Source: Methylosinus sp. C49 (GTDB lineage: Bacteria; Pseudomonadota; Alphaproteobacteria; Rhizobiales; Beijerinckiaceae). From it: a stretch of 64,000 nucleotides of DNA. The stretch covers positions 496,001 through 560,000 of the forward strand of contig NZ_AP022332.1 of assembly GCF_009936375.1 (NCBI RefSeq), in the 5' to 3' direction. A model generated the notes under the pieces. It worked only from the letters and a program-made list of their open reading frames with translations. It searched no databases and had not been told where the DNA came from. Position numbers and translations under genes: made by a program. Shown piece after piece: positions 1,857 through 52,030 of the stretch. Numbering within the stretch: the stretch's first letter is position 1; each line of letters begins with the position of its first letter.

Positions 1857-3134
1857 TCAACTGGCGCGCCTGGGCGCCAGAATGACGCGGAAGTCGTTCA
1901 CATTGGTGCGCGTCGGGCCGGTGACGAGGAGATCGCCGAGCTTCTCGAAGGCGGTATAGGCGTCGTTATTGGCGAAGAGCGCCTTGAGATCGACGCCCTG
2001 CGCCGCCGCCCGCGCGAAGGAATCAGCGGTCATTATGGCGCCGGCGTTGTCCTCGCTGCCGTCGATCCCGTCCGTATCGCAGGCGATGGCGGAGATTCCG
2101 CCAAAGCCCTCGAGCGCCAGCGTCAGCGCCAGCAGGAACTCCGCGTCGCGGCCGCCCTTGCCGTTGCCGCGCACGGTGACGGTGGTCTCGCCGCCGGAGA
2201 TGATGGCGACGGGCGGCGCGATCGGCTGCGCATGACGCGCGATCTGCCGCGCGATGCCAGCGTGGACCAGCGCGACATCGCGCGATTCGCCCTCGAGATC
2301 GCCGAGGATGAGCGGCGTGAAGCCGGCCTTGCTCGCCACTGCGGCGGCGGCGTCCAGCGAGCCTTGCGGCGTCGCGATGAGAATATTCTCGACGCGATCG
2401 AAAATCTTGTCGCCGGGCTTGGGCGTCTCGCAGGCGTCGCTCGACAGATAGGCGAGCACGGCGGGCGGCGCGTCGATCTTATATTTGGCGATGACGGCGA
2501 GCGCGTCCTCGCGCGTCGTCGGGTCCGGCACTGTGGGGCCGGAGGCGATGACGGAAAGATCGTCATTCGGCACGTCGGAGATCATCAGCGCGACGACCTT
2601 GGCCGGCGCCGCGACGCGGGCGAGGCGTCCGCCCTTGATCGCCGAGAGATGCTTGCGCACGCAATTCATCTCGGAAATGGTCGCGCCGCTCTTCAGCAGC
2701 GCCTTGTTGACGGCCTGCTTTTCTTCCAGCGTCACGCCATCGGCCGGCAGCGCCATCAGCGCCGAGCCGCCGCCGGAAATCAGCGCGAGCACGAGATCGT
2801 CCTCGGTGAGGCCCTGCACCTTCTGCAGGATGCGGCCCGCGGCGGCGCGGCCGGCGGCGTCCGGCACCGGATGCGAGGCCTCGATCACCTCGATCTTGGA
2901 AGTCGGAGCGCCATGCTCGTAACGGGTGACGACGAGGCCCTCGATCGGATGCGGCCAATGCGCTTCGACCGCCGCGGCCATGGAGGCCGCCGCCTTGCCC
3001 GCGCCGACGACGATGGTGCGGCCCTTGGGCGGCGCGATCTTCTCGAGGAAGGCCGGCAGGCAGACGGACGGATGCGCCGCGCCGACAGCGGCGTCGAACA
3101 TGGCGCGGAGAAGCGTGCGATAGTCGTCAGACAT
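1857..3134 (-). CDS. gck: Glycerate 2-kinase (MOFRL family)
   Basis: Phosphorylates D-glycerate to 2-phosphoglycerate, the step that returns serine-cycle carbon to PEP. The 425 residues show the glycerate-kinase domain (VVGAGKAAASMAAAVE near residues 42-57, and ALISGGGSALM near 115) and the C-terminal MOFRL domain (ACDTDGIDGSEDNAGAI). Length is normal for the GckA/TtuD group. It is the last serine-cycle gene of the leftward cluster, separated from mclA by the repeat/DUF559 block. The remnant DUF559 reading frame runs into its first codons. Its stop lies 27 bases before the Zur box, so read-through into the zinc operon is possible. Confidence 0.9.
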   Translation of the reverse strand: MSDDYRTLLRAMFDAAVGAAHPSVCLPAFLEKIAPPKGRTIVVGAGKAAASMAAAVEAHWPHPIEGLVVTRYEHGAPTSKIEVIEASHPVPDAAGRAAAGRILQKVQGLTEDDLVLALISGGGSALMALPADGVTLEEKQAVNKALLKSGATISEMNCVRKHLSAIKGGRLARVAAPAKVVALMISDVPNDDLSVIASGPTVPDPTTREDALAVIAKYKIDAPPAVLAYLSSDACETPKPGDKIFDRVENILIATPQGSLDAAAAVASKAGFTPLILGDLEGESRDVALVHAGIARQIARHAQPIAPPVAIISGGETTVTVRGNGKGGRDAEFLLALTLALEGFGGISAIACDTDGIDGSEDNAGAIMTADSFARAAAQGVDLKALFANNDAYTAFEKLGDLLVTGPTRTNVNDFRVILAPRRAS

Positions 3135-3277
3135 TCCTAAGCCTCGGTGTTCTCCCTTCTCCCATTCGTGGGAGAAGGCGGCCCGACGAAGTCGGGTCGG
3201 ATGAGGGTCCTCGCCGCTTCGCGATCGTTCTATCCGCCTCGCGAAGAGTTTCCAACGGAATCCGATTCTCTTCGCCG
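3127..3277 (-). pseudogene. Remnant of a second DUF559 gene (C-terminal end only)
   Basis: Minus-strand translation between two repeat units gives NRIPLETLREA followed closely by IAKRRGPSSDP. This aligns with NIPLERIREAIANRRGPSSDP at the end of the intact DUF559 gene at 3342-3776. The rest of the domain is missing, cut off by the inverted repeat at about 3278-3336. The frame continues through the repeat and stops at 3127-3129, inside the first codons of gck. I read it as the decayed end of an older copy of the same repeat-flanked unit. Confidence 0.6.
3151..3211 (+). repeat. Two-stem palindromic repeat, copy 1 (forward)
   Basis: About 60 bp with two stem-loops: CTTCTCCC pairing with GGGAGAAG, then GCCCGAC pairing with GTCGGGT, followed by GGATGAGGGTCCT. 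The same layout recurs at 3278-3336, 3356-3417, 3781-3837, 3889-3950 and 51971-52030. Stems co-vary between copies (for example CCCGG/CCGGG in copy 3), so folding seems to be conserved. Confidence 0.85.
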
Positions 3278-3336
3278 GCCCTCATCCGACCCCGCTACGC
3301 GGGGCCGCCTTCCCCCGCCCTGCGGGAGAAGGAGGA
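3278..3336 (-). repeat. Two-stem palindromic repeat, copy 2 (reverse)
   Basis: Inverted copy of the repeat. It starts with GCCCTCATCCGACCCCG, then CGGGGCCGCC, then the first hairpin with arms CCCGC and GCGGG and GAGAAGGA. It bounds the DUF559 remnant on its upstream side. Confidence 0.8.
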
Positions 3337-3341
3337 GAGCG

Positions 3342-3776
3342 CTACGACCGTCGTGTTCTCCCTTCTCCCGCTTGCGGGAGAAGGTGGCCCGGCGGAGCCG
3401 GGTCGGATGAGGGTCCGCGACGATTTGCGATCGCTTCCCGAATCCGCTCCAGCGGGATATTGCCACCGCCGATGACAAGGTCATTGTCTAGGCGACGGAC
3501 GTGATAGCCACGCTCACGCAGCCACTTATCGCGAATGGCGTCATGGCGGCGTTGGTCTTCGTGTTCATGCGGCCGGCCGTCCAGCTCGACGATCAGCCGG
3601 TGCTCGGTGCAGAGAAAATCGGCGACATAATTCCCGATCGGGACTTGCCGCCGGAATTTCAATCCGTCGAGCCCAGAATTGCGCAAGGAACGCCAGAGGA
3701 TTTCCTCCGCGTTCGTCATCTCGCGCCGCAGACGTCTTGCGAAAGCAGTCTTGGACTTCGAGACTCGCGTCGGCAT
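3342..3776 (-). CDS. DUF559 (Vsr/PD-(D/E)XK-like) endonuclease-domain protein, repeat-flanked
   Basis: About 144 residues. Signature elements of the DUF559 family are visible: N-terminal AFARRLRREMTNAEEILWRSLR, then GLKFRRQVPIGNYVADFLC, then LIVELDGRPHEH (catalytic-type acidic and ELDG core), and RDKWLRERGYHVRRLDND. These proteins belong to the very-short-patch-repair-like nuclease fold; substrates are unknown. The gene is bracketed by inverted repeat copies. The ATG (3774-3776) sits just past the repeat at 3781-3837, which supplies a GAGG-type ribosome-binding site. The last about 25 residues (GPSSDPAPPGHLLPQAGEG) are read through the repeat at 3356-3417. It interrupts the serine-cycle cluster between mclA and gck. 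Confidence 0.78.
   Translation of the reverse strand: MPTRVSKSKTAFARRLRREMTNAEEILWRSLRNSGLDGLKFRRQVPIGNYVADFLCTEHRLIVELDGRPHEHEDQRRHDAIRDKWLRERGYHVRRLDNDLVIGGGNIPLERIREAIANRRGPSSDPAPPGHLLPQAGEGRTRRS
3356..3417 (+). repeat. Two-stem palindromic repeat, copy 3 (forward), encodes the DUF559 C-terminus
   Basis: Arms CTTCTCCCGC/GCGGGAGAAG and GGCCCGG/CCGGGTC, then GGATGAGGGTCC. It lies at the 3' end of the DUF559 gene, whose last codons and stop run through it. Together with copy 4 it forms an inverted pair around the gene. Confidence 0.85.
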
Positions 3777-3780
3777 GCGA

Positions 3781-3837
3781 GGACCCTCATCCGACCCGGC
3801 TTCGCCGGGCCACCTTCTCCCACAAGTAGGAGAAGGA
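3781..3837 (-). repeat. Two-stem palindromic repeat, copy 4 (reverse), at the DUF559 start
   Basis: Reads GGACCCTCATCCGACCCGG, then CCGGGCCACC, then arms CTTCTCCCAC and GTAGGAGAAG. It lies immediately upstream of the DUF559 ATG and provides its ribosome-binding region. Confidence 0.85.
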
Positions 3838-3888
3838 TATGAACCCGACGATTCCGCGAAACGATCGTAAGCTTGCGGCGCCGCGCCG

Positions 3889-3950
3889 TTCTCCCTTCTC
3901 CCGCAGGGCGGGAGAAGGCAGCCCCGCGTAAGCGGGCTCGGAGGAGGGCC
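3889..3950 (+). repeat. Two-stem palindromic repeat, copy 5 (forward, divergent variant)
   Basis: CTTCTCCCGC arm with GCGGGAGAAGG, then GCCCCGC/GCGGGCT arms, then GAGGAGGGCC in place of GATGAGGGTCC. It follows the mclA stop by about 18 bases on the leftward transcript, where its hairpins could act as a terminator or mRNA 3' end protector. Confidence 0.75.
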
Positions 3951-3967: not shown

Positions 3968-4942
3968 TTACGCAGCGCCGATCTGATCCGCCTTGTCGAT
4001 CAGCGCCTGGGCCATGCGGATGCTGGCGATGTCGATCAGGCGGCCGTCGAGGGACACCGCGCCGCGGCCTTCCTTGGCCGCCTGCTCCATCGCCTCGAGA
4101 ATGCGGCGGGCCTTCTTCACTTCCGCCTCGGAGGGGGTGAAGACCTGATTGGCCAGATCGATCTGCGAGGGATGAATCGCCCACTTGCCCTCGAAGCCGA
4201 GGACCGCGGCGCGCTTGGCGGCGGCGATATAGCCATCGGGATCGCCGAAGTCGCCGAAGGGACCGTCGATCGGACGCAGGCCATAGGCGCGCGCCGCGAC
4301 GAGGAAGCGCGTCTGCGCCGCATGCCACTGGTCGGCCCAGAAATACTGGCGATTGCCCTCAGCGTCCTTGTCCGAGAGAACGCCGTAATCCGGGTTCACG
4401 CCGCCGATGACGGTGGTGCGGGCGCGGGTGGAGGCGGCGTAATCGGCGACGCCGAAGGAGAGCGCCTCATTGCGCTTGCTCGCCTGAGCGATCGCCTCGA
4501 CATTGGCCATGCCGAGCGCGGTCTCGATCAGCAGCTCGAAGCCGATGCGCTTGGTGCGCTTCTTGTAGCTCTCGATCTGCGTGACCAGCATGTCGATGGC
4601 GTAGACGTCCTGCGGAACGCCGACCTTCGGAATGAGGATCACGTCGAGACGCGGGCAGGCCTCGACGACGTCGACGACGTCGCGATAGCAGAAATGCGTG
4701 TCGAGGCCGTTGATGCGCAGCGTCATCGTCTTATTGCCCCAATCGATCTCATTGAGGCCCTGGATGATGTTCTTGCGCGCCTGCTCCTTGTCGTCCGGCG
4801 CCACGGCGTCCTCGAGGTCGAGGAAGACCTGGTCGGACTTGGAGGTCGCGGCCTTCTCGAACATGCCGGGGGCGGAGCCCGGAACGGCCAGCTCGGAGCG
4901 ATGGAGACGCGGCGTCGCCTGCTCGATCAAAGTGAAGCTCAT
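3968..4942 (-). CDS. mclA: Malyl-CoA lyase
   Basis: Cleaves malyl-CoA to glyoxylate and acetyl-CoA, closing the serine cycle. The 324-residue protein belongs to the HpcH/HpaI-CitE family and begins MSFTLIEQATPRLHRSELAVPG. It shows VFLDLEDAVAPDDK (Mg-binding acidic cluster), LRINGLDT, VILIPKVG, FELLIETALGMANVEAIA and WAIHPSQIDLANQVF, the pattern expected for MclA. Start 4942 fits the family N-terminus. It lies 26 bases downstream of ppc and is followed by the repeat/DUF559 block. A distant second family member is encoded at 36521-37381. Confidence 0.93.
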   Translation of the reverse strand: MSFTLIEQATPRLHRSELAVPGSAPGMFEKAATSKSDQVFLDLEDAVAPDDKEQARKNIIQGLNEIDWGNKTMTLRINGLDTHFCYRDVVDVVEACPRLDVILIPKVGVPQDVYAIDMLVTQIESYKKRTKRIGFELLIETALGMANVEAIAQASKRNEALSFGVADYAASTRARTTVIGGVNPDYGVLSDKDAEGNRQYFWADQWHAAQTRFLVAARAYGLRPIDGPFGDFGDPDGYIAAAKRAAVLGFEGKWAIHPSQIDLANQVFTPSEAEVKKARRILEAMEQAAKEGRGAVSLDGRLIDIASIRMAQALIDKADQIGAA

Positions 4943-51970: not shown

Positions 51971-52030
51971 GTCCCTTCTCCCGTTCACGGGAGAAGGTGG
52001 CCCCGCGAAGCGGGGTCGGATGAGGGTCCT
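51971..52030 (+). repeat. Two-stem palindromic repeat, copy 6
   Basis: Arms CTTCTCCCG/CGGGAGAAG and GGCCCCGC/GCGGGGTC then GGATGAGGGTCCTCG, the same element as near 3.2-3.9 kb. Lies between the LysR gene and acnA. Confidence 0.85.

Follow-up and report, generated by a model that had tools for sequence, protein, structure and literature searches.

Why does a small gene of the DUF559 family lie between inverted copies of a hairpin repeat in the chromosome of Methylosinus sp. C49, and do gene and repeats belong together? We analyzed a stretch of 64,000 nucleotides (nt) of this genome (NZ_AP022332.1, positions 496,001-560,000), hereafter the window; positions below are those of the window and the genome is referred to as G000. 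An earlier note on this DNA had suggested that gene and repeats are one unit, laid out like repetitive extragenic palindromic (REP) elements with their REP-associated tyrosine transposases (RAYTs). Our results lead us to propose, with a probability of roughly 0.6, that the gene and two inward-facing inverted arms form a unit that replicates within its genome, following the logic of a REPtron (a tnpAREP gene with REP and its inverse, iREP) but with a Vsr-like PD-(D/E)XK nuclease.

The gene (3342..3776, minus strand) comprises 144 codons of protein with confirmed ATG start and TAG stop. Its product matches PF04480 with an E-value of 2.4e-34 (117.9 bits against a curated cut-off of 20.6), and an AlphaFold2 model with a predicted local distance difference test score (pLDDT) of 84 has 3hrl, I-Bth0305I, and Vsr as its closest structures. 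The protein of 144 amino acids is hence predicted to adopt the PD-(D/E)XK fold of Vsr and the catalytic-domain fold of EDxHD homing endonucleases such as I-Bth0305I. Its candidate active-site residues D53, E64, and H70 are invariant among the sequences compared. Each repeat copy is built from hairpin 1 (CCTTCTCCC..GGGAGAAGG, with variants), hairpin 2, and a GGATGAGGG-like tail; a plus-strand copy carries hairpin 1, hairpin 2, and the GGATGAGGG tail in this order on the plus strand. All five copies that the earlier note had placed around the gene were located and are named R1 to R5. R3 (3361..3413, plus strand) at the C-terminal side and R4 (3784..3836, minus strand) at the start side enclose the gene with their tails turned inward, forming 59-nt arms that are 92% complementary. 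As single-stranded DNA (ssDNA), R1, R3, R4, and R5, the four copies covered, fold more stably than their dinucleotide-shuffled versions (z -3.0 to -4.4; -3.97 for R3 and -4.07 for R4). The tail of R4 contributes a GAGGG motif 7 nt upstream of the ATG, at the position of a putative ribosome-binding site, whereas R3 and its edge encode the last residues of the protein (..RRGPSSDPAPPGHLLPQAGEGRTRRS), R3 itself supplying most of the C-terminal tail; both roles had been read from the sequence before and agree with our coordinates.

The same architecture recurs at DUF559 loci of other genomes. As a sequence-independent test, we aligned each upstream flank locally with the reverse-complemented downstream flank and counted a best score of at least 20, a cut-off fixed after the first 31 loci, as an inverted flanking pair. 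Flanks measured 450 bp for those 31 loci and 250 bp in the sliding-control, phylum-sample, 110-locus, GIY-YIG, and ParE tests. The control, mock genes slid along the same loci, was applied to 80 fetched DUF559 loci, one of which was dropped for a short flank: 61 of the 79 usable loci have an inverted pair, compared with two of 3120 mock genes. DUF559 matches are present in 62 of 100 relatives, from which 110 loci were drawn (30 from the first profile matches, including L036 with an internal TGA, and 80 taken by E-value rank down to 2.2e-28); a match in G025, likewise with an internal TGA, ranked above this value but was left out. An inverted pair flanks 83 of the 110. Because several of the 23 loci that the window's genus supplies are syntenic, the count outside the genus is also given, 65 of 87. 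With one random locus per genome the proportion is 38/50, and 42 of the 50 genomes hold at least one paired locus. DUF559 matches also occur in 108 of 299 genomes of a phylum sample, where 14 of 30 loci score against 2 of 325 controls, and in a set of named genomes the figures are 48/76 against 4/1091 (one of 77 loci dropped; 300-bp flanks reaching 90 bp into the gene's 3′ end). Seven named-genome loci are shared with the first sample and all seven score, leaving 41/69 once they are removed; the DUF559 sequences of G009 and G005 are the same as those of the named-genome loci L262 and L263 from Methylosinus strains. Chance is a very unlikely source of this pairing. The unit proposed in the earlier note thus finds its counterpart elsewhere far above controls, and the expectation that DUF559 genes are flanked by the same repeat stands for the architecture but not for the repeat sequence, which is not conserved.

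Further features were counted at the arm-bearing loci: the start-side arm turns its G-rich side toward the gene in 71 of 83, the reading frame enters the 3′ arm in 43 of 83, and 25 of 83 arms contain a canonical G-quadruplex motif. Specificity was assessed with two motif patterns (A and B), defined after flanks had been inspected, and with three other gene families from the 100 relatives. For GIY-YIG and ParE the best match per genome was used (30 loci each, 29 and 28 with sufficient flank); for the Y1 transposase 26 of 30 loci were analyzed with 350-bp flanks, 24 of them sufficient. The DUF559-type arm motif lies on at least one side of 87/110 DUF559 loci and of 0/29 GIY-YIG, 0/28 ParE, and 0/24 Y1 loci. 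Inverted flanks were likewise found at none of the 28 ParE loci, an imperfect control because an antitoxin gene usually adjoins on one side. Nine of 24 Y1 loci do score, with flanks of other sequence than the DUF559-type motif, so that the flank test also detects a known kind of association. One Y1_Tnp locus (L347, in G015) has a flank pair scoring 90 and is probably an ordinary RAYT or IS200-like unit.

G000 itself holds two DUF559 matches in total. The second gene, downstream of lepA, lies between inverted copies of another repeat of similar build (CCCCTCTCCCCG..CGGGGAGAGGCCGGGTGAGGGG), whose arms fold weakly as ssDNA (z -1.2 and -1.9). The question therefore widened from one repeat to an architecture, and we compared protein and arm similarity across 83 loci from 42 genomes. 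Within genomes the two correlate with r = 0.50 (75 pairs), and with 0.30 (P = 0.013) when close duplicates are removed (67 pairs). Across genomes the correlation is 0.294; shuffling arms among DUF559 loci of the same genome lowers it to a mean of 0.06, none of 300 shuffles reaching 0.294, and the arms therefore do not merely reflect which repeats the genome holds. Arm sequence tracks the DUF559 lineage, beyond the genome background, and a search for an identical repeat would therefore miss many cases.

Repeat load and DUF559 presence are also linked. By one pattern, at least four repeats occur in 41 of the 55 genomes where DUF559 is clearly present and in 7 of the 45 others (Fisher 2.5e-9, Spearman 0.70), and outside the genus in 32 of 46 versus 6 of 44; seven genomes with only weak or partial matches were assigned to the minus group, and these copy-number statistics ignore shared ancestry. 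Among the 28 genomes with at least 20 copies, 25 have a DUF559 match and seven a Y1 match. A strict pattern finds 40 copies in G000 and a looser one 66, the latter 33 per strand. Thirty of the 40 strict loci were searched for solitary pairs, yielding 13 different pairs in tail-to-tail arrangement whose spacers measure 25-67 nt, seven of the 13 at 61-67 nt.

Copies and vacant sites point to movement within genomes. Seven of 120 same-genome DUF559 protein pairs, in G020, G041, G036, and G006, are 80-93% identical and lie at different loci, the best between-genome pair outside the window's genus reaching 77% identity. By strict alignment, homology between the paralogs L082 and L086 stops at most 8 nt from the outer arm ends on both sides, and at least one edge falls within 8 nt of the arms in six of nine paralog pairs. 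The earlier note had raised the possibility of a mobile unit, and occupancy in close relatives does vary, at lepA, at the glycerate-kinase locus of the window gene, and at both solitary pairs examined. Three genomes, G000, G008, and G006, carry the lepA unit, which is missing from the 900 nt compared in the seven remaining ones; G008 has it between lepA and the gene that directly follows lepA in G005 and G009. At solitary-pair site 1 six genomes carry the pair, a single hairpin lies in G004 and G009, and G006 has a pair of another family (G007, where the flanks were not both found, is excluded). Site 2 has the pair in G000, G005, and G002, a single hairpin in G008, none in G004, G009, and G006, and another insert in G007, both flanks not being found in G001 and G003. 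Gain and loss cannot be told apart at every site.

Several side observations concern these sites. In G006 (L191) the last lepA codons are duplicated after the DUF559 unit, and G001 carries a duplicate of the last lepA codons (C46:192825-192896) at a distance of about 1.7 kb from the gene, which would fit an insertion hot-spot at the end of lepA. At site 2 of G002 (L387) the loop of the right hairpin holds an insert that has GCACGGCTGTCCGGGG as inverted ends and is bordered by direct repeats CACAGAGTG; it looks like another small mobile element. G006 carries pairs of another family at the kinase locus (L181) and at site 1 (L381), where other species carry the window family, as if its arms had been replaced in place.

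In the mechanism we propose, the DUF559 protein would bind the hairpin arms belonging to its lineage and break DNA at or near them, and repair or strand transfer would then copy the unit, or the arms alone in trans, to another intergenic place. The short arm pairs with 25-67-nt spacers would be non-autonomous dependants of the protein, as REPINs (doublets of REP sequences) are of RAYTs. We favor break-and-copy over a classical transposase reaction because the nearest functional structures are a homing endonuclease and Vsr, a choice that we offer as a guess.

A number of results weigh against a replicating unit. At the threshold used, 27 of the 110 loci have no pair, and randomly mispaired flanks of different genomes reach a score of 20 in 130 of 1465 cases, a consequence of the resemblance between arm families. 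Outside Proteobacteria pairs are sparse: two of eight loci in Bacteroidota (both Runella), one of four in Chloroflexota, and none of three in Acidimicrobiia; the single Armatimonadetes locus has one. Fourteen of the 55 clear-DUF559 genomes hold fewer than four copies by the pattern used, and G059, the strongest exception, has 91 repeats and no DUF559; the sole DUF559 match of its congener G019 carries a stop codon, and it is possible that G059 lost the gene while its repeats survived. Paralog edges fit the arms less well by strict than by looser alignment: both edges lie at the arms in only one of nine pairs, neither lies within 10 nt in three (L067/L072, L056/L085, and L041/L063), and three further pairs align strictly over little more than one arm. 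No consistent target duplication was found at the two solitary-pair sites. The window locus is stable across most of the genus, the gene being kept in 7 of 10 genomes of the genus (in G001 as a shortened match), with a remnant in G003 and absence in G006 and G007; the window unit is old, and in three syntenic groups of ~10 kb the only arm-bearing indel is R5. Finally, none of the 13 solitary pairs of G000 contains a convincing DUF559 remnant, and we therefore do not propose the gene unit as the general source of such pairs. With a lowest shuffle p of 0.02, uncorrected, among 13, deletion from the unit is not supported as their general origin, and these pairs appear unlike deleted copies of it.

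The explanation that competes best, which we judge unlikely, makes DUF559 a homing-type selfish endonuclease that cuts resident repeats and is copied in by repair, the repeats spreading by other means. The fold of the catalytic domain of I-Bth0305I is shared in the model; that enzyme carries domains besides the catalytic one, and the DUF559 gene here is free-standing between inverted arms. The lepA sites of G005 and G009, which lack the gene, carry no repeat at the junction, and an arm pair is therefore not a needed target there. Repeat load, moreover, tracks DUF559 presence, which is unexpected for a passive target.

Distinctly less probable is a host function, in which DUF559 would be a Vsr-type mismatch-repair or SOS-linked nuclease and the repeats ordinary intergenic hairpins acting as terminators or messenger RNA stabilizers. 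The window arms do form strong hairpins, and Caulobacter VsrA, a DUF559 protein, is reported in the available part of PMC12907096, which makes no mention of repeat arms, to stand behind the SOS response of cells without the ScmA methylase. Covariation of protein and arms as well as copies within genomes would be unexpected for such a protein, and the ParE loci of the same genomes, weakened as that control is by the adjoining antitoxin gene, show no comparable flanks. Improbable to a greater degree still is a recombination hot-spot at which hairpin-rich intergenic sites gain and lose passengers, DUF559 among them, the protein having no role. Neighboring sequence does differ at the lepA 3′ end, at the kinase locus of G007 with its insert, and in E. 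coli between eef operon and ycjD, and the edges of several paralogs fail to coincide with the arms; the passenger, however, is specifically DUF559 and sits in lineage-matched arms. That the repeats are RAYT-driven REPs with hitch-hiking DUF559 genes is scarcely credible: the inverted doublets with their short spacers, over half at 61-67 nt, resemble the REPIN layout (available part of PMC3116915), but Y1_Tnp has no match in G000 or in 77 of the 100 relatives, is not significantly linked to repeat load (P = 0.23), and at its 24 loci never has the arm motif, the nine with inverted flanks using other sequence.

Preferring the replicating unit, we compared it with known systems. As in REPIN/RAYT systems, an enzyme gene lies between its own inverted palindromic repeats (here at 83/110 loci, with covariation), inverted doublets with short spacers are dispersed between genes (here the 13 pairs), enzyme and repeat covary, and matches on plasmids or phages are few. 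The enzyme differs, an HUH/Y1 transposase there and a PF04480 PD-(D/E)XK nuclease here, as does the tag, a conserved GTAG beside the palindrome. GTAG occurs once in R2 (inside hairpin 2) and its complement CTAC once in R4 (inside hairpin 1); R1, R3, and R5 contain no GTAG, and neither GTAG nor CGTC occupies a shared position in R1-R5. As the unit lacks the defining enzyme and tag, it is not classed as a REPtron. The logic is REP/RAYT-like; enzyme and repeats are not. Unlike tnpAREP, described as mostly single copy and without evidence of mobility in the accessible text of PMC8266576, DUF559 genes are commonly present in several copies per genome. GTAG- and CGTC-tagged REPs are likewise dispersed palindromes; the part of PMC3733652 available to us states that CGTC repeats show no association with transposase genes, raises the question whether untagged repeats are bound by specific proteins, and draws no link to DUF559. 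A miniature inverted-repeat transposable element (MITE) with its autonomous parent would share inverted ends, and the R1-R2 pair described below looks internally deleted beside a full unit, but the DUF559 unit has no known transposase and no consistent target duplication.

Carriage on plasmids or phages was rejected; the L001 protein has matches in 41 of 72,556 plasmid records, several such records being chromosome-sized, and in 3 of 50,697 phage records. Neither DUF559 protein of G000 matches PADLOC-DB, an absence that excludes nothing. In the open-access literature searched, titles and abstract openings of papers that mention DUF559 disclosed no link between DUF559 and dispersed repeats, and a term search of the REP survey PMC12306157 gave no match.

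E. coli offers a partial counterpart in the DUF559 gene ycjD, which has an arm of similar architecture on its C-terminal side and on its start side an unrelated hairpin instead of a matching arm. The ycjD repeat, which may be the BoxC element, has matches at a median of 19 sites per E. coli genome. Beside ycjD of K-12, part of the gene's 3′ end recurs next to an arm of similar architecture (L339:2697-2960). According to the available part of PMC12817139, ycjD is one locus that takes the place of the eef operon in phylogroups A, B1, and C. We discarded the idea of a clean empty site for eef/ycjD, both eef-type strains examined carrying an efflux operon there.

The remaining copies of the window surround the unit. 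Next to it, R1 (3155..3207, plus strand; ssDNA fold z -4.44) and R2 (3279..3332, minus strand, with an imperfect hairpin 1 stem) form the left and right arms of a neighboring tail-to-tail pair. Their spacer (3208..3278) reads on the minus strand as ENRIPLETLREADRTIAKRRG, to be compared with NIPLERIREAIANRRG, and so resembles a remnant of the DUF559 C-terminus, a resemblance noted without a significance test. Similar C-terminus-like readings occur in the syntenic spacers of G008, G002, and G009, and in Methylosinus Sm6 a tblastn match (642 nt for the 144-amino-acid query) continues into the R1-R2 spacer. Judged from these translations, the pair looks like an internally deleted neighbor of the full unit. 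R5 (3894..3948, plus strand), which ends in GGAGGAGGG and is absent in G008 and G004, adjoins a putative malyl-CoA-lyase-type gene beginning at 3968; the neighbor on the other side is a putative glycerate-kinase-type gene (1857-3134), both names being read from the gene products. Hairpin 2 of the start-side arm is much longer in G001 (L174), and a similarly long hairpin occurs in the R5 copy of G009 (L178). A further copy of the window repeat lies on the minus strand at 51989..52026 (L009; G000:C1:547989-548026). At gathering scores, Rfam identifies two tRNAs only in the window.

Small GIY-YIG nuclease genes provide an apparent parallel system. Eleven of 29 such loci carry inverted pairs, which belong to another repeat superfamily (GTCATCCCCGGCGAAAGCCGGGATCCAG and CTCATCCTGAGG..GAGG types), and a second, GIY-YIG-type motif is found at 14 of 29 (L202-L231 set) and at none of 110 DUF559 loci. 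We therefore entertain, at slightly under even odds, the broader idea that small stand-alone non-transposase nucleases, DUF559 and in parallel GIY-YIG, drive populations of palindromic repeats, each lineage replicating its own arms, and that a large share of the mover-less intergenic palindromes of proteobacteria and beyond may be nuclease-driven REPtron-like systems.

To our knowledge, many bacterial palindromic repeats have no known mover, RAYTs accounting for one class. The present results link DUF559, a common family of unknown function, to a repeat superfamily in three respects, namely position, copy number, and covariation of sequence, so that DUF559 would gain a testable function and the repeats a candidate mover. 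They suggest a second, non-homologous solution to the role played by REP/RAYT systems, and the GIY-YIG parallel, if it holds, would extend this to a wider class of nuclease-repeat systems. As E. coli K-12 holds a partial candidate in ycjD, the idea is directly testable.
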